A DNA stretch of 20,025 bases from a virus: positions 1 to 20,025 of IMG/VR virus record IMGVR_UViG_3300034068_000209; one strand, written 5' to 3'. Under the pieces are notes generated by a model. The model was not told the DNA's origin and ran no database searches. It saw nothing but the letters and a program-made list of their open reading frames with translations. Of this stretch, positions 1-19,950 are shown piece after piece (the stretch's first letter is position 1; the number at the start of each line of letters is the position of its first letter). A program made the position numbers and the translations under genes.

Positions 1-202
1 CGTCTTGGTCTGCTTTAATTTTAGCTAATGCAGATGCATAACTATAGGCTCCACTATTGCTGCCACCACTAGTATCTGTGCTAGTTGTTTTGATACCTGA
101 GCCCTCTGTTGGGTCAAATTCGTCTGTTTCCTTAGTGCTAAAGAATGATTTAGCTGGAGCCTTAGTTATAATTTTACCAGCTTTTGATGATACTACTGCC
201 AT
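1..202 (-). CDS. hypothetical protein, cut by the window edge
   Basis: This is an open frame of 67 codons from an ATG at 202 running off the left end of the window. The protein begins MAVVSSKAGKIITKAP and continues with a low-complexity Ser/Thr/Gly/Asp-rich stretch (about residues 36-50) before turning Ala/Lys-rich. The start lies 4 bases after the TAA of the upstream gene, the tight spacing used throughout this operon, which supports it as a real gene. I do not recognise the family. Its place after the tail-tube-like and fibre-like genes would suit an internal virion or tail protein, but that is inference from position only. Confidence 0.6.
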   Translation of the reverse strand, partial: MAVVSSKAGKIITKAPAKSFFSTKETDEFDPTEGSGIKTTSTDTSGGSNSGAYSYASALAKIKADQD

Positions 203-206
203 ATCG

Positions 207-653
207 TTACCTCAATTGTAATAAGGATTGTGCGTCTGCAGCAATCTGTCTAGCTTTATCGGATTCTAAATCCTTTAATCCTTCTTCATAATTACTTAAC
301 CCTTGCGTATCAGCTAAGTTATATCCTCGTGTAGTGCCAGCTAAATCTTCTTTAGCATAGCCTATATTTTTAGCTCTGTTCTTGGCATAGCTTTGCAAAG
401 CTTGATTATAAATGCCAGACTTAGTGTTCATGCCCTGTAGTCCTCTGCGGCCATATGAGGATGTTAGCTTGGGGACTTGACCTAGCCCACCACTTGGAGT
501 TCTGCCAAAGGCAGATTCCTCGAGCTCGGTAATAGGGCGTTGGGCCCTGGTCTCTGCTAAGTATCTTTGATACGCATTAAGGGCAGCTTGCTGTGCGTAC
601 TGATTAAATAGGTTACGCCTTTGCTGCTCAAAGTATGTTGGGTCAAATGCCAT
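207..653 (-). CDS. hypothetical Gln/Ala-rich late protein (possible internal virion protein)
   Basis: A 148-residue protein with no signal peptide or membrane segment. Residues 1-45 are rich in Gln, Ala, Tyr and Arg and look helical; the middle is Gly/Ser-rich; the C-terminal third is acidic and again helical. The ATG at 653 is preceded by AGGAG at a normal distance (minus strand). The gene directly follows one of the four repeated promoter-like motifs, so it probably starts a transcription unit that continues into the next gene across a 4-base gap. I do not recognise a family. In T7-like gene order the internal core proteins follow the nozzle region, so an ejected internal protein is possible, but nothing in the residues proves it. 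Confidence 0.75.
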   Translation of the reverse strand: MAFDPTYFEQQRRNLFNQYAQQAALNAYQRYLAETRAQRPITELEESAFGRTPSGGLGQVPKLTSSYGRRGLQGMNTKSGIYNQALQSYAKNRAKNIGYAKEDLAGTTRGYNLADTQGLSNYEEGLKDLESDKARQIAADAQSLLQLR

Positions 654-13108: not shown

Positions 13109-13134
13109 CCTAATAGTAGGTAAAAGTATTACAT
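13109..13134 (-). promoter_or_regulatory. late-promoter-like motif, copy C
   Basis: The minus strand reads ATGTAATACTTTTACCTACT then ATTAGGACTTC. The core GTAATACTTTT overlaps the TAA of the terminase gene. Aligned with copies A and B without gaps, the downstream box agrees at TA (positions 4-5 after TTTT plus M-C-Y) and again at TA before the G-rich end. It would drive the zinc-ribbon, holin-candidate and basic-protein genes. Confidence 0.5.
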
Positions 13135-14733
13135 CTTATCATTATAGAAGTTAAATTCGCCTATAAGATATCGTTCTAGCTTTTTAGGCTGCTTCTTTAT
13201 CGTTGCGGCGAAGTAGTTTAAGGTGCCATATGGAATATCTGTTTTGCCTTTATATTCTGGCAACCACACATATTTTAACATTTGATTTGCTATGGCTAAA
13301 CTCATAACTCTGTCATCATGAGGACTTCCGTGAGTTTGACCATTATCATCTCTAACAAAGGTCTTAAGTTCAGCAATAGTAAATTCGCACCTAAGGTCTA
13401 GTATACCATCTCTTAGATTAGCATTCAACTCATCTATAGCTAAAGGTTTAGTTAATGTTGTTGTGCGCCAACCCAATGCTTCTGTGGCTTCTGAATGTCT
13501 TTGGTTTAATCTACGTTGTCTATAAAGGTTAGTATATTTAGATTTGTTTAAAGCAGTTAAAGTTGTTAAACCGTGGTTATTGGATTCAACTCCTATTAAA
13601 GCCTCATTATAAAAGAATCCAAGAGCATATAGAACATCTTCTCCAAACTTGTCTGGGTCTATGTGCCCGTGCCAGTGGGCTACGACTACACCTGACTTGG
13701 CATCAATGACATGGGCTGACGAATAGTCACCTCTAGCTAGACCTTCAGCAACGTCAGCACCAACAACGTATCTAGCCCCAGCCTGTGGCATTAACCATAT
13801 CGATAACGGTCCACCATCTGGGTCAAACATGTAAGAGTTCCTCATGTCTGACAATTTTTTATTATAACCTTTTTTAGGAAAACTTATTAAAAATCTATTT
13901 AAACAATCAAGGTCAAAAACTGGTCTACCGGAACGAATAAAGGCTTCTTCTGGGTTAGAAGGGTACTCCTGATGTAGCTGCCATGGTGGTAGTTCTGCGG
14001 CCTGAGCGTCATACCAAGATTGGTCACGGTCTCCGTTAGCTGACCATGGAAAAAAGATTCCTTTAAATCTATTAGTATTATTCTGTGACCCTTGCCATAA
14101 GTTAAAAAATATATTACCTTCACCCTTGGCAGTAGATAGACAGATGACTCGACCACCTACGTCTGCAATTGGCTCTATTGATGCCCAGGCTTCTTCTGGG
14201 TTAGGCAAGAAGGCCATCTCGTCGATTATAGCCAAGTATACAGATTCACCTCTAGCAGGCTCGTTAGCAGATGGCATTGACTCAATTACTGAATCATTAT
14301 TAAATGTCATCTTTAAAACATTGTTTTGTATTAGTTCCGGGCCTGATAATCTTAACCAGTCTGGCAAGAACTTATAAATATATTTAGCTTTAGATAATAG
14401 TTTTGCGGCTTCTCTTTCGGTCTTTGACAACATAACGATGAAACGGTCTGGTGCAAAGAAACATAACCAGAAAGAATACGCCGCTGCCAGAGTGGAGAAT
14501 CCTATCTGACGTGACTTTAATACTATTGAATATCTGTTTTCTACCCATGCTTGTACTGCTTCTTTTTGTGCTGGTCTTAAATTTAATTGTATGCGGCCTT
14601 TATTTGGATGTTTAATATAAACAAAATTGGCACAGAAAAAATCAAATGCTTCAACCAATTGTTCTGGTGTAGCATTTTCTGGTCCACGACATTTGCGGAA
14701 ATTATATTCATTAATTAGGTCTTCTAATTGCAT
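13129..14733 (-). CDS. terL: terminase large subunit
   Basis: A 534-residue packaging motor. The ATPase half shows a Walker A-like loop KSRQIGFST (73-81), in which Phe sits where the classical Lys would be and Lys precedes the Ser-Arg-Gln, a variant known in several terminase families. Walker B is LAIIDEMAF (D171, catalytic E172), and motif III is ICLSTAKG (197-204). The nuclease half has the RNase H-like acidic residues: D327 in VVGADVAEG, E383 in IGVESNNHG, and D473/D474 in SPHDDRVMSLA. It cleaves and translocates DNA into the procapsid through the portal. It starts immediately after the TAA of the sulfotransferase. The distance from the small-terminase candidate (separated by fibre and sulfotransferase genes) is unusual. 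Confidence 0.95.
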   Translation of the reverse strand: MQLEDLINEYNFRKCRGPENATPEQLVEAFDFFCANFVYIKHPNKGRIQLNLRPAQKEAVQAWVENRYSIVLKSRQIGFSTLAAAYSFWLCFFAPDRFIVMLSKTEREAAKLLSKAKYIYKFLPDWLRLSGPELIQNNVLKMTFNNDSVIESMPSANEPARGESVYLAIIDEMAFLPNPEEAWASIEPIADVGGRVICLSTAKGEGNIFFNLWQGSQNNTNRFKGIFFPWSANGDRDQSWYDAQAAELPPWQLHQEYPSNPEEAFIRSGRPVFDLDCLNRFLISFPKKGYNKKLSDMRNSYMFDPDGGPLSIWLMPQAGARYVVGADVAEGLARGDYSSAHVIDAKSGVVVAHWHGHIDPDKFGEDVLYALGFFYNEALIGVESNNHGLTTLTALNKSKYTNLYRQRRLNQRHSEATEALGWRTTTLTKPLAIDELNANLRDGILDLRCEFTIAELKTFVRDDNGQTHGSPHDDRVMSLAIANQMLKYVWLPEYKGKTDIPYGTLNYFAATIKKQPKKLERYLIGEFNFYNDKM

Positions 14734-15549
14734 TTAAATATTTTTCCAAAACTCAAGATTAGAATAACGTTTTATTGTTTCTGGCAGAAGCACGTCTTTT
14801 GGTTTTCTAGATTTCTTTTCTATCTTTGGTCTGATTTTGTGTAAGTTCTTAATGCCTGTAAGACTGTCTTCAGAGATGCCTGAGCGGTCTTCAATGTTAT
14901 TAAATTTATGATTGTATTTCTCAATTTCCAAGAATGCATATATTTTATTAATCTCCTGCTCTGGGTTGGTGGTTAAATCATTATAATCAACAAAGTGAAA
15001 TATGTGACGATACTCTGGAATTAAAGCATGCTTCATAAAATTTAAACTTAAAGCTATATCTTTATCATGACGCATCAAGAAATCTGCTCTTCTATCTGCT
15101 AATGGCAAATTGCCAAAAGTTGAAGCTAACACTTGTTCATCCATTTGGTTATTTTTAGAATCGGGATGAGCGTTAATAATTGTATCAAACGAAACTATAA
15201 CATCTAAAACATTTCTTACTGGACATATTATTTTAATATCTTTTGTTATATATCTATTAATTAATTCTACACCTAGCGGGTTTGGCCAATTAAGATTTTT
15301 ATCAATAATGTACTTGGCTGACTTGTCTTGGTAAAACGCGTGTGGAATGGTTGCAATGGTGTCATCTATTGCAGCACTTCTACTATAGTCTATATTTTCT
15401 AATTCATTGTGACTTTGTGTTTGCGTAAGCATCATTCTAAATAACGGACTTGCCGGAGAAACCCACACATCTGGATTTTGATTTAATATTGCACTAAGTA
15501 ATGTTGCGCCAGAGCGTTGCATTCCGGCTAAGAAAAAGAATTGTTTCAT
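14734..15549 (-). CDS. PAPS-dependent sulfotransferase
   Basis: A 271-residue protein of the P-loop-like sulfotransferase family. The 5'-phosphosulfate loop is at residues 9-18 (GMQRSGATLL), right at the N-terminus as usual. The 3'-phosphate-binding segment is CPVRNVLDVIVSF (109-121, with R112 and S120). KNLNWP (84-89) and VDYNDLTTNPEQEINKIYAF (188-206, the family's Tyr-x-Asp-Leu...Pro block) complete the pattern. It would transfer a sulfo group from PAPS to a hydroxyl or amine of an unknown acceptor: host surface glycan, protein or small molecule. AAGGACG precedes the ATG at 15549. It lies between the receptor-binding fibre's operon partner and the large terminase, abutting the latter with no gap, so it is expressed late with virion genes rather than with metabolic genes. 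Confidence 0.85.
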   Translation of the reverse strand: MKQFFFLAGMQRSGATLLSAILNQNPDVWVSPASPLFRMMLTQTQSHNELENIDYSRSAAIDDTIATIPHAFYQDKSAKYIIDKNLNWPNPLGVELINRYITKDIKIICPVRNVLDVIVSFDTIINAHPDSKNNQMDEQVLASTFGNLPLADRRADFLMRHDKDIALSLNFMKHALIPEYRHIFHFVDYNDLTTNPEQEINKIYAFLEIEKYNHKFNNIEDRSGISEDSLTGIKNLHKIRPKIEKKSRKPKDVLLPETIKRYSNLEFWKNI

Positions 15550-15819: not shown

Positions 15820-18717
15820 TTATTTTTCCTCTAGTTCTGCAACTCGAGCAGACAGTTCTTTAATTGCATTGACTAATATTGGTACAAGTCTACCATAAGT
15901 AGCTTCTAGCTTATCAGGGTTGGAACGGTATGTCAATTGCAATGTCTCATGAGCATTAAGAATATCTTCTATTTCAACAAGGTCTTGTGCAATGAAACCC
16001 ATATCAGGAACATCTACTTTAGCACCATCGCGCATATCCCAATCAAACTCTACTGGATTGAGTGAATTAACAAGTGCTAAACCATGCTTTAATGGTTTAA
16101 TGTTTTTCTTGTCGCGGGCATCAGACAATGCTGTTATTGAAGTTACCTGTGCACGAATTGTAGCAATTGATGAGTTGCCTAATGTTATTTCATTGGATAC
16201 AGTTGCAGTTGATGCAGTTGCGTCAAATCCAATTGTAGTATTATTACCACCAGTTGTAATAGTACTACCAGCTGACTTACCAATTGCTGTATTGCTGCCA
16301 CCAGTTGTAATAGCAGAACCTGCGCTAGAGCCAACCATTGTGTTATCAGAACCTGAAGATAGTCCAGCACCGCAGCTATTGCCTATTGCAACGTTACTAG
16401 ATGATGTTGTAGAAGATTGCATTGTTCCAACACCCATTGCAGTATTGCTTGAACCTGTTGTATTGGCTTGCAAACAAGCTGGACCCACTGCAGTGTTGCC
16501 ACCACCACCATCGGTGTAGCGTAAAGCGTTAACACCAATAGCAGTATTATAGTTATCAGTTGTAGATGTTGCTAATGCAGTACTTCCTATTGCAGTGTTT
16601 TCATGTCCAGTAGTTAATGCTGCGCCTGCGTCACCACCAATAGCAGTGTTTTGATAACCAGTTGTGTTAGCTTTTAATGCTCGAAGACCAATTCCAATAT
16701 TGCCACCACCAGTAGTATTTGTTTGTAATGAATTTTCACCTATGGCTATGTTTCCTACAGGAGTAGTATTAGCAGTTAAAGCACCATTACCAATTGCAAC
16801 GTTTCCTGAACCAGTTGTGTTGGCAGCTAATGCTAAATAACCGATTCCAACATTTCCTGTACCTATTGTATTGACTTGTAAAGCACCAAGACCGATAGCA
16901 ACGTTTTGCGCACCAGTAGTGTTGGCTGATAATGTATTGTTACCAATGGCAAGATTAAAACCACCAGTTGTATTAGCAAATAATGAATTATAACCAATTG
17001 CTAGGTTACCTTGTGCTGTAATAGCGGTATATAACGCTTGAGTACCAATAGCTATATTGCTAGTACCAGTGGTATTAGCTAATAATGCGCTGTCACCAAT
17101 AGCTATGTTGCTAGTGCCAGTGGTGTTCGCATTTAATGCACCACCACCAATGGCTATGTTTGCATCAACTGTGCTAACTTGTAAAGCACCACCGCCAAGA
17201 GCAACGTTTCTAGAACCTCCTATGTTAGCTGATAAAGCACCAGTACCCACAGCGGTATTATTAATACCTGTTGTATTAGCTTTTAAAGCATTAAGACCAA
17301 TGGCTACGTTGCTAGTACCAATAGTGTTAGCTCTCAAAGCATCAAGACCAATTGCAACGTTTTGCGTACCAGTAGTGTTAGATAATAATGCGTTGGCACC
17401 AATTGCAACAAGAGAAGCACCAGTAGTATTAGCTACTAATGCTTGGTTGCCAATTGCAACGTTGTTGTTAGCTGTGCTTACCCTTAAGGCATAAAAGCCT
17501 ATAGCAATGTTAGCAGTAGCAGTTGTTGCTGTAGCTAATGCGCCTGCACCAACAGCAATATTAAAATAGCCAGTTGTTAAAGCGTTCATTGAGCCTTGAC
17601 CAATAGCAACGTTTAAACCAAAACCAGAGAAGCCACCAGTAGTAGCAGCCTGCATACTATTATTGCCAATGGCTATGTTAGAACTGTTTGCTGTTGCTAA
17701 TTTTAAAGCATTTTGTCCAATAGCTACGTTGTTCTGACCTGTTGTGTTTGCATTTAACGCAAAATCACCAATTGCAACAAGACCTGATGAGGTAGTAGTG
17801 TTCTGTAAAGCCTGGCGTCCAATTGCAACGTTATAGTTACCACTTGTTAATTTGTTCATTACACCATTGCCAATGGCAATGTTATGACTACCAGTAATAC
17901 TTGATGTTCCAAGATATCCACCAAACATTACTTGCTCACCAATTGCAATATTATTATCACCATTATTGCTATAGCCGGCATAAGAACCAATGAAAGTATT
18001 TTTAGCACCAGTTGTATTATAGAATGCTGCGTTCTCACCAATTACAGTGTTCTTATCACCGTTATTTAAACCTAATGAATAGTGACCAATGGCCATGTTG
18101 CGGTTACCAGTTGTTAAACCACCAGCATAAAAATCGCTACCGCCAAGTGCACGGAAACCTAATGCTACGTTTCTTGAACCAGTTGTAAGTTTATTTAATG
18201 CTTGAACACCAAATGCATAGTTTGCAACACCAGTTGTCAAAGCTTCCAAAGCTTCTGCGCCAATGGCAACGTTGATACCAGATGCAGCACCTGGTGCTGT
18301 TCCATTCATAGCCAAGTAACCAGCTGCCATGTTGAAGCCAGTTGAACCAGAAGAAGCAATTGCTCCAGTTACTTGATAAACTACCCAACCAAGACCAGTC
18401 GGTCCAGTCGGTCCGGTCGGTCCCGTTGGTCCGGTCGGTCCCGTAGGTCCGGTCACGGTGGACGCTGCGCCTGTGGCTCCAGTCGGCCCGGTCGGTCCGG
18501 TAGGGCCGGTCGAGCCAGTGGGGCCTGTCGAGCCGGTCGGGCCAGTCGGTCCGGTTGCTGTAGTTAAATACGCAAGACCATTCCAGTTAGTAGTACCGTC
18601 ACCAATCTTTGCTTTGTTGGTATCATACTCAGAACCAATTTCGCCGGCAAGAAGAATTGGGTTAGCACTAGTCCAGTTTGCTGCAGTGTCGCGTCTTACT
18701 TGTACAATTACAGCCAT
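15820..18717 (-). CDS. giant receptor-binding fibre: collagen-like tract, YadA-type head repeats, S74 autochaperone
   Basis: A 965-residue fibre. Residues 1-50 ([21 protein letters not shown]... [11 protein letters not shown]) are a common phage fibre attachment head. Residues 56-108 are collagen-like Gly-Pro-Thr repeats with a short break. Residues about 149-850 hold about 40 repeats of about 17 residues (consensus N-x-A-I-G-x-x-A-L-x-x-N-T-T-G), the YadA/trimeric-adhesin head beta-roll type. Residues 865-965 are an intramolecular chaperone of the S74 type: [12 protein letters not shown] with the likely cleavage at Ser865, [30 protein letters not shown]. The chaperone trimerises the fibre, then cuts itself off. 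The frame extends 40 codons upstream, but I chose the ATG at 18717: the fibre head begins there, AGAGGA precedes it, and it follows the previous TAA after one base. Confidence 0.9.
16168..18273. repeat. about 40 tandem units of about 51 bp encoding the YadA-like head
   Basis: Each unit encodes about 17 residues around N-x-A-I-G-x-x-A-L. Unlike the 12-bp PPVV repeat, codon choice and flanking residues differ from unit to unit and some units carry insertions, so the array is old and diverged, maintained at protein level. The exact count depends on how irregular units near both ends are treated. Confidence 0.85.
18394..18552. repeat. collagen-like Gly-Pro-Thr coding repeat
   Basis: The tract is built of 9-bp GGTCCGACC-like units (plus strand ggtccggtc and variants), coding Gly-Pro-Thr with a few Gly-Ser-Thr and Gly-Ala-Thr, interrupted once by Ala-Ala-Ser-Thr-Val-Thr. 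It is clearly more GC-rich than the rest of the fibre gene because of the GGx-CCx codons. Confidence 0.95.
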
Positions 18718-18718
18718 G

Positions 18719-19048
18719 TTAGAATCCTCTTCCCGGTTCGTAAAAATCTCTTCTTGTTTCGAAATATGTGCTAGCAGTTCCTGTTGCACCTTGATTAGCA
18801 TCAAAGGTAGCTGCAGTTGGAACCACTGTTGAAGCACTCATTGGTGTAGTGTCTGCAATTAACAAATAGTGGAATTGAAAGGTAGAAGCATTGCCGCCAG
18901 AAACAGTAGACTCATCTTGATGGTCCATAAGCAAGTCATCTTGCTGACGCTTTAAATCACGTTTTAAAGTATTGAATGCGCGCACCATATTAGAGTTTGA
19001 TTTACCCTGAATAGAGCTAGACTCGTAATAACCCCAAACGGCTTTCAT
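18719..19048 (-). CDS. hypothetical protein between small terminase and fibre
   Basis: A 109-residue protein. Residues 17-45 are helical and basic/acidic ([30 protein letters not shown]). The rest is Ser/Thr/Ala-rich with beta-like segments ([14 protein letters not shown]) and ends in an aromatic, charged tail ([15 protein letters not shown]). No signal peptide or Cys. The ATG at 19048 overlaps the TAA of the small-terminase gene (TAATG), and one base separates its stop from the fibre start. This coupling suggests a virion or packaging role. Family not recognised. Confidence 0.7.
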
Positions 19049-19491
19049 TACTCTGTATCCTTTATAATATTAAAGGTTGGTTGTTTCTTTTGCGTGATTT
19101 CTAAAATCATTGCTTGTAAATCTTCATCAGATAATTCTTTAATAGATGTCTCAGATTTAATATTTATTTGTTGTGCAGCATTAGGCATCTGGTTAGTGGC
19201 CTTTAAATACAGCTCGGCGGATTTAACATCACCCGATATGCCTTTAATATATAAAGCATCTAGCAAAGCTTGGGCACGCTCAGGTGATTGAGCAAGTCCT
19301 TTAACACCCAGCATGTGCCTTTCGACAAAATTTTTATTCTTTTCCCATTGGCCTAGAGTGTTGATGTGAAGGTCGTGTTGTTCAGCCCAATCCTTTTTAG
19401 TTTTAGGGTTGCGAGAATCAGTTGGTTGCAACAACCATTCAAGATACGACTCCTGGGTTTCAGTCAAAAATAATCTTGTTGTCTTCGCCAT
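19048..19491 (-). CDS. terS: terminase small subunit candidate
   Basis: A 147-residue protein. The N-terminal third carries a helix-turn-helix of the kind seen in phBC6A51-type small terminases (YLEWLLQPTDSRNPKTKKDW, then AEQHDLHINTLGQWEKNKNF, about 18-56), where the kk-x-W-A-E...T-L-x-x-W core binds the packaging site. A helical middle (AQALLDALYIKGISGDVKSA, about 74-93) suits oligomerisation, and the C-terminus is acidic and Gln/Lys-rich. It is the first gene of the leftward late region, starting from the ATG at 19491 with AGAGG upstream and promoter-like motif A about 40 bases ahead. The large subunit lies four genes away. The assignment rests on the HTH and position, not on a detected partner interface. 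Confidence 0.7.
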   Translation of the reverse strand: MAKTTRLFLTETQESYLEWLLQPTDSRNPKTKKDWAEQHDLHINTLGQWEKNKNFVERHMLGVKGLAQSPERAQALLDALYIKGISGDVKSAELYLKATNQMPNAAQQINIKSETSIKELSDEDLQAMILEITQKKQPTFNIIKDTE

Positions 19492-19591: not shown

Positions 19592-19600
19592 TGCTATACT
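19592..19600 (+). promoter_or_regulatory. extended -10 promoter of the 52-residue gene
   Basis: TGC-TATACT fits an extended -10 element (TGn plus a 5/6 match to TATAAT). No good -35 is visible. The expected start, about 7 bases downstream (about 19607), would leave almost no leader before the ATG at 19610. Confidence 0.45.
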
Positions 19601-19609
19601 ATGTAGGCT

Positions 19610-19768
19610 ATGAAGAATTATAAAGTAAACTATAGAAAAGCAGGTCCGCTAAAGGTAACTAAAGCCGACGGCACTGTTGCTATAGAACCAGCTCTAAAAA
19701 GAGAAGAGCTTTTGACCTTCTTGAAAAAGAGTGGTAATATTAAGAGAAGATATAATACAACTAAATAA
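19610..19768 (+). CDS. 52-residue basic protein on the opposite strand
   Basis: The only convincing plus-strand gene. The protein starts MKNYKVNYRKAGPLKVTKAD, continues GTVAIEPALKREELLTFLKK and ends SGNIKRRYNTTK; it is basic, probably a beta hairpin followed by one amphipathic helix. No family is recognised. It is divergent from the terminase operon, has an extended -10 box immediately upstream and no clear ribosome-binding sequence, suggesting a near-leaderless message. Its orientation suggests it belongs to the early or regulatory half of the genome lying to the right. Short length limits confidence. Confidence 0.6.
   Translation: MKNYKVNYRKAGPLKVTKADGTVAIEPALKREELLTFLKKSGNIKRRYNTTK
19712..19740 (+). 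promoter_or_regulatory. sigma70-like promoter reading into the non-coding region
   Basis: TTGACC (19712-19717) and TAATAT (19735-19740) are separated by exactly 17 bases, and TGG precedes the -10 as an extended element. The expected start is near 19747. It lies inside the 3' part of the 52-codon gene and points at the structured non-coding stretch. Confidence 0.5.
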
Positions 19769-19950
19769 ACTCTTTCTTTAGAAAGCGCAAACCCAGCGTG
19801 ACACGGGTTGCAGGTGAGAACCCTTGGCCACAGAAAGCTTTAAGGCAAGTTGTGGTGAGCCTAGCGTAAGACGCGTAAATGGTCGTCGTGTTACGGTATA
19901 GAGATAGACGGGTTGTTCGACGTTAAATAAAACAACCGGGGGGGGTTTTA
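19747..19950 (+). ncRNA. candidate structured non-coding RNA, family unknown
   Basis: No gene fits 19769-20025. From about 19772 to 19945 the DNA is more GC-rich than its flanks and folds locally: CTTTC/GAAAG (19772-19785), AACCC/GGGTT (19790-19809) or alternatively GGGTT/AACCC (19805-19823), CCACA/TGTGG (19828-19855), CGTAA-GACG with CGTC-GTG-TTACG (19865-19895), and GGTTGTT/AACAACC (19911-19937), then eight G and TTTT. A sigma70-like promoter lies just upstream. I looked for tRNA, tmRNA, RNase P, SRP and group I/II intron hallmarks and found none convincing. It could be a regulatory RNA, a leader of a gene to the right, or the edge of a larger structured RNA. Confidence 0.45.

Follow-up and report, generated by a model that had tools for sequence, protein, structure and literature searches.

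A structured RNA family near the packaging genes of two groups of uncultured phages, in one of them in an exchangeable slot

The pRNA of phi29 is a small phage RNA tied to DNA packaging genes; it binds the portal-ATPase motor, and packaging requires it. The put RNAs of HK022 and the late leader of lambda are promoter-proximal phage RNAs located at the start of operons, the put RNAs consisting of two hairpins and working in cis on the RNA polymerase that transcribes them. GOLLD and ROOL are structured RNAs of phages and prophages whose function is unknown; in GOLLD one region is conserved and another less so (PMC12286853). The locus described here lies in an IMG/VR fragment of 20,025 bases, referred to throughout as the window. 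Its RNA is a phage structured RNA of orphan status, like GOLLD and ROOL; it lies near packaging genes, like pRNA; and it shares the promoter-proximal place of the put RNAs and the lambda late leader. However, with a conserved core of ~175 nt it is far larger than the put RNAs, and it falls short of the several hundred nucleotides of ROOL (659 nt in one example) and GOLLD (often >800 nt), RNAs that frequently neighbour tRNA genes. Covariance searches gave no match to GOLLD or ROOL, and ARAGORN detected no tRNA or tmRNA in the window. Nor is there a match to HEARO, and the ORF adjacent to the RNA, at just 52 aa and with no Pfam match, does not suggest an omega RNA. Searches of the window and 12 related loci against Rfam 15 returned no match at the gathering score. 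At E<=10 the window matched RAGATH-17 alone, at a chance-level 22.7 bits where the cutoff is 102.3. No description of the RNA was found in the literature, in a search mostly outside subscription papers.

The late genes of the window run leftward and encode the major capsid protein, a scaffold, a P22-like portal, TerL (13129-14733) and a probable TerS. The last is a 147-aa HTH protein (19048-19491, minus strand) which serves as the genomic anchor of the slot containing the RNA. Its match to PF13022 is weak and below the family cutoff (E 5.6e-5), and it has no PHROG match; it adjoins the late genes, and in one relative the gene neighbouring TerL is annotated 'DNA-packaging protein'. From this context it is probably the small terminase subunit. 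The nearest annotated relatives of the window are distant, with at most 36% identity in the capsid protein and 53% in TerL, the latter with an uncultured podovirus found in a spring. Genes for a sulfotransferase-domain protein and a 2OG-Fe(II) oxygenase (14734-15549 and 686-2020) are found amid the structural genes, and a long protein encoded at 15820-18837 on the minus strand has collagen-like GPTGPTG repeats and, after these, many copies of NIAIG/NVAIG units.

Rightward of TerS there is first an ORF for a 52-aa basic protein (19610-19768, plus strand; phrog_13711, E 1.4e-4) and then the RNA region, at the boundary of the leftward late genes and the rightward genes, where the original prediction had placed it. 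That prediction also described ~180 non-coding bases, GC-rich relative to the genome. The region is indeed non-coding from 19769 to at least 19945, and its GC content is 52.5% (19786-19945) compared with 40.0% for the window. No frame is open throughout on the sense strand, an antisense 65-aa ORF crossing the region is interrupted by stops in the homolog L104 (L-numbers are labels of the related contigs and loci compared with the window), and the sequence further to the right, available from the near-identical contig L037, contains no protein gene covering it. The motif K(V/I)T(K/R)ADG recurs in small basic proteins encoded just 5' of the RNA slot in the window (19610-19768), L120, L138 and L151; these proteins may be partners of the RNAs.

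Relatives of the RNA fall into two groups of phages. Near-identical copies occur in L002, L003, L023 and L037. In L018, L022, L031 and L040 a 159-nt core is unchanged from the window, with a different P1 hairpin. Comparison with L018 shows 159 of 159 core positions identical, while the DNA of TerS, TerL and the next ORF is 70.3%, 79.8% and 75.4% identical, respectively; such identity beside diverged neighbours is as expected from recent exchange or strong constraint. Scanning with TerS added L104, whose RNA is 84% identical to that of the window, and L154, together with more distant forms at the same place in L150, L140 and L147. The second group, found by pattern scans, comprises ~18 contigs of phages of ~14-16 kb (L054, L055, L068, L072-L074, L079 and L155-L165). 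Wherever it is present, the RNA occurs once per record. Outside these groups, the weak DNA matches in cultured phages proved to be chance and none is a real relative. A single DNA pattern run against bacterial genomes gave nine matches, three of which read as cobalamin riboswitches, and no recognised homolog. The cultured phages Arielagos and Root (HNH gene at the genome end) and QMacho (HNH gene before the terminase genes) have either no room for the RNA or no model match, and none was seen in the stretches read of MW202803, the nearest annotated relative.

The family member in the window extends from 19772 to 19945 on the plus strand. It begins with the P1 hairpin CTTTC-TTTA-GAAAG (19772-19785), replaced by differing yet pairing hairpins in L018, L104, L154, L068, L042 and L150. 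Thus P1 varies in sequence and keeps its pairing in the types inspected, and its loop is often a GNRA. For L054, L055, L158, L162 and L165 it was read directly from the sequences (for example CCCG-ACTT-CGGG and CCAC-AACT-GTGG); single cases of P1 are weak evidence, since hairpins of at least 4 bp end at 20% of random positions. P1 is followed by CGC (19786-19788), which is conserved in the window-type, small-phage, L042-type and L150 RNAs, and then by P2 (19790-19809). The original prediction had here a 9-bp two-part stem with a 10-base loop. The hairpin exists, as AACCC-AGCGTGACAC-GGGTT, with a conserved 10-nt loop, but only 5 bp of the stem are supported; three of these five pairs are changed on both sides across types. 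P3 (19812-19824) pairs AGG with CCT, an A-U pair having changed to C-G on both sides, around the 7-nt loop TGAGAAC, which we take to be T-loop-like. The hairpin-loop sequence GGTGNGAANCC is the same in loop L5 of the cobalamin riboswitch and in P3. The rest of the RNA is unlike that riboswitch, and neither the window nor its relatives have an Rfam riboswitch match, so it is likely that just the T-loop motif is shared.

The 3' part of the RNA is less uniformly conserved. The P4 stem CCACA...TGTGG (19828-19855) comes from folding prediction and is invariant in the relatives, placing it beyond the reach of covariation. P5, GCGT-AAG-ACGC (19864-19874), becomes CCGT-TAG-ACGG in L104, and P6, GGTTGTT...AACAACC (19910-19937), becomes GGTTC...GAACC, with both sides changed in each. 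Compensatory changes in the window's own lineage keep P1, P5 and P6. GTCGTCG (19882-19888) may form a pseudoknot with CGACG in the P6 loop (19918-19922), a candidate seen by eye with 5 bp in the window and 7 bp in L104. The conserved core is closed by a G-run (19938-19945), as are the RNAs of L018, L104, L042, L140, L147 and L138. The minimum-energy fold of the window pairs the P2 loop with the distant GTGTTACG; this pairing is disrupted in L104 and was dropped. The small-phage group has its own possible pseudoknot, CTAAC/GTTAG (helix 4), which is 91% paired, with three pairs broken in some rows and no compensatory change.

Covariation in the homologous phages carries the case for the structure. 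In 14 small-phage RNAs, 98.3% of the base-pair cells are paired, compared with 88.7% in shuffled controls, which keep relatedness, and 23-40% in slid controls, which remove relatedness and score far lower. Both sides are changed in 10 of the 34 pairs, and the covariation score is 0.314 versus 0.117. The covarying 3' helices of these RNAs lay outside the selection by window-derived patterns. Across the window, L104, L054, L042 and L150 types, four of the eight pairs of the P2-P3 domain have changed on both sides, with 98.1% of cells paired. A covariance model, R1, was computed from the small-phage RNAs alone, leaving out the window sequences. It matches the window once, at 19784-19825, with 60.4 bits and an E-value of 2.7e-12, which is inflated since the small-phage group had been found with patterns derived from the window. 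Strong matches were also obtained in L018, L154 and L104; the next best in 278 kb (L147, L042, L056, L150 and L140) lie in the expected places and are weak, with E-values of 0.03-1.1. The P2-P3 domain, the covarying stems and the conserved P2 and P3 loops thus define an RNA family outside Rfam 15, and we regard it as very probably real. The principal claim of the original prediction, an unassigned structured RNA, accordingly holds on the null Rfam result, the covariation and the lack of a protein gene to the right.

Folding energy, by contrast, lends the structure no support, and the structure is considered real on account of the covariation. Energies gave z-scores of -0.92 for 210 nt (36 of 200 shuffles fold as well) and -0.38 for 174 nt (66 of 200), and -1.73 for the reverse strand. 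This is what would be expected of a functionless spacer which folds by accident, an explanation that is contradicted by the covariation, the R1 match and the 159/159 identity and that we consider extremely improbable. A second alternative is that the inverted repeats act as DNA, in a cos or pac site or an origin. The closeness of the locus to packaging genes, and to contig ends in the small phages, would suit such an element. However, G-U pairs are common in the covarying helices on the plus strand (at A2 columns 55-71, 56-70, 104-123 and 105-122) and would turn into A-C mismatches on the opposite strand, indicating that the structured molecule is the plus-strand RNA. In addition, there is a promoter upstream and the slot can also be taken by unrelated sequences. 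A DNA element is therefore very unlikely.

The promoter put forward in the original prediction, TTGACC-17-TAATAT (19712-19717 and 19735-19740, plus strand), is present and was recovered in a consensus scan. It lies within the 52-aa ORF, however, and is probably not the main promoter, although it may be a second one. A homolog of this ORF is found upstream of the slot RNA of L120, with TTGACT-17-TAATCT at the same codons, so that the conserved position is also coding. A sigma-70 scan does not lift the site above chance by itself, finding five promoter-like sites where 1.4 were expected. The main promoter probably includes, judging by sequence comparison, the extended -10 TGCTATACT (19592-19600, plus strand), an instance of the TGnTATACT motif common to the RNA-bearing relatives. 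This motif precedes the RNA in L018, L092, L104, L120 and L154, and in L018, L092 and L154, which are without the 52-aa ORF, a TATACT -10 (mostly with the extended TG) lies immediately 5' of the RNA. No good -35 accompanies it in the window, where an intrinsic terminator following the G-run was likewise not recognisable.

This arrangement raises the question of a cis-acting leader, a promoter-proximal antiterminator or attenuator which would let polymerase read into the following operon. The position is compatible with an antiterminator of the put type: the RNA is promoter-proximal in several relatives, with genes on the same strand coming after it, and in the small phages it leads to an HNH gene and then TerL across the presumed genome ends. 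There it could form part of the mRNA of the terminal HNH gene. On the other hand, the next gene in the window type has its own promoter-like sequence, TTGTAC-17-TACAAT (read in L037), the two phage types have different operons after the RNA, and the slot can instead be occupied by an RNA of unrelated sequence or by a protein gene. A leader is accordingly a doubtful explanation, albeit one of the better placed alternatives.

The genomic contexts of the two groups bear on a role in packaging. In most window-type relatives the RNA begins 135-370 nt from the start of TerS and points away from it, with an HNH gene intervening in L042. In the small phages the RNA lies directly 5' of an HNH gene, followed by TerL. 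Two fixed sequences, 530-585 nt downstream, mark where seven contigs (L054, L055, L156, L159 and L163; L074 and L155) and probably also L158 terminate, and this point is presumed to be the physical genome end. In L068 (10929-11936, locus reversed) and L073 (2435-4300), from ~16 kb phages, a single open frame joins HNH and TerL over the presumed ends, other contigs stopping exactly between the two genes. Thus phages differing in gene content carry the same RNA 5' domain, beside TerS in the one case and before HNH-TerL in the other; the RNA is near packaging genes in both, with a different orientation to TerL. It is tempting to see in this proximity a packaging RNA, forming part of the motor or of its site recognition. 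Yet the orientation is not constant, the window already has a probable TerS and, unlike pRNA, the window RNA has no Rfam match and can be missing or substituted where TerS is the same. We consider a packaging role improbable.

The replacement of the RNA is seen when relatives are compared by TerS. Those with enough upstream sequence carry the window-type RNA, a dissimilar RNA-like region or a protein gene. The RNA-like regions of L092, L120 and L138 represent three types dissimilar to the window RNA, and those of L092 and L120 turn up in several contigs with 91-100% identity. L092 and L095 (the contig of L018) share 142 of 143 TerS residues and have unrelated RNAs in the slot, between flanking DNA that is 81% identical up to the -10, 90% from the next ORF and 80% in the short 3' flank. 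L124 and L126 have identical TerS proteins, with a protein gene in one slot and an RNA in the other. On a TerS tree of 32 rows, with many weak branches, the window-type RNA requires three changes and the state 'no RNA' nine, although this state may conceal unknown types because it is defined as no match to nine reference RNAs. Such swapping is the behaviour of an accessory cassette and speaks against an indispensable part of the packaging machinery. Since relatives exchange the contents of the slot, the original argument that retention of the non-coding region implies function was too simple. A promoter and a 3' flank in common, together with frequent G-run endings, suggest that the slot RNAs may be alternative alleles sharing a role.

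The family, its plus-strand structure, its place outside Rfam and the exchange of the slot were computed. From these we infer, with about even confidence, an accessory trans-acting phage RNA gene borne on an exchangeable cassette and transcribed by the host polymerase; transcription, autonomy and action in trans are the inferred elements. Host RNA polymerase would transcribe rightward from a sigma-70-type promoter just 5' of the RNA. The ~175-nt product would fold into a 5' domain of P1, CGC, P2 with its conserved 10-nt loop and P3 with its T-loop-like loop, and a variable 3' domain with a G-run at its end. Through the conserved loops it might act in trans on a target of the host or of a rival phage. 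Host defence, superinfection exclusion or host takeover may be guessed as targets, these being the usual contents of exchangeable phage slots. A more specific version, in which a fixed promoter slot adjoining the terminase genes takes up non-homologous RNAs, swapped as alleles, for RNA-based exclusion, immunity or counter-defence in trans, is decidedly speculative.

With this locus, a structured RNA family missing from the catalogues is described, together with its alignment and covariance model, in two groups of uncultured phages that differ considerably. It is unusual for whole RNAs to be swapped between one promoter and one 3' flank as TerS stays constant, and this suggests that phages trade RNA genes the way small accessory protein genes are traded. 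Should these RNAs act in trans, the slot could lead to more phage RNAs and to their targets in the host. Another conserved RNA-like region, with no Rfam match, lies 3' of a 62-aa ORF in L037 (~174-383, minus strand) and also in L092, L104, L109 and L136; it contains GGGGACAACTTAGAGCTTTCGT and has a terminator-like end, GGGCCAGGGATTAACTTCTCTGGTCTTTTTC.
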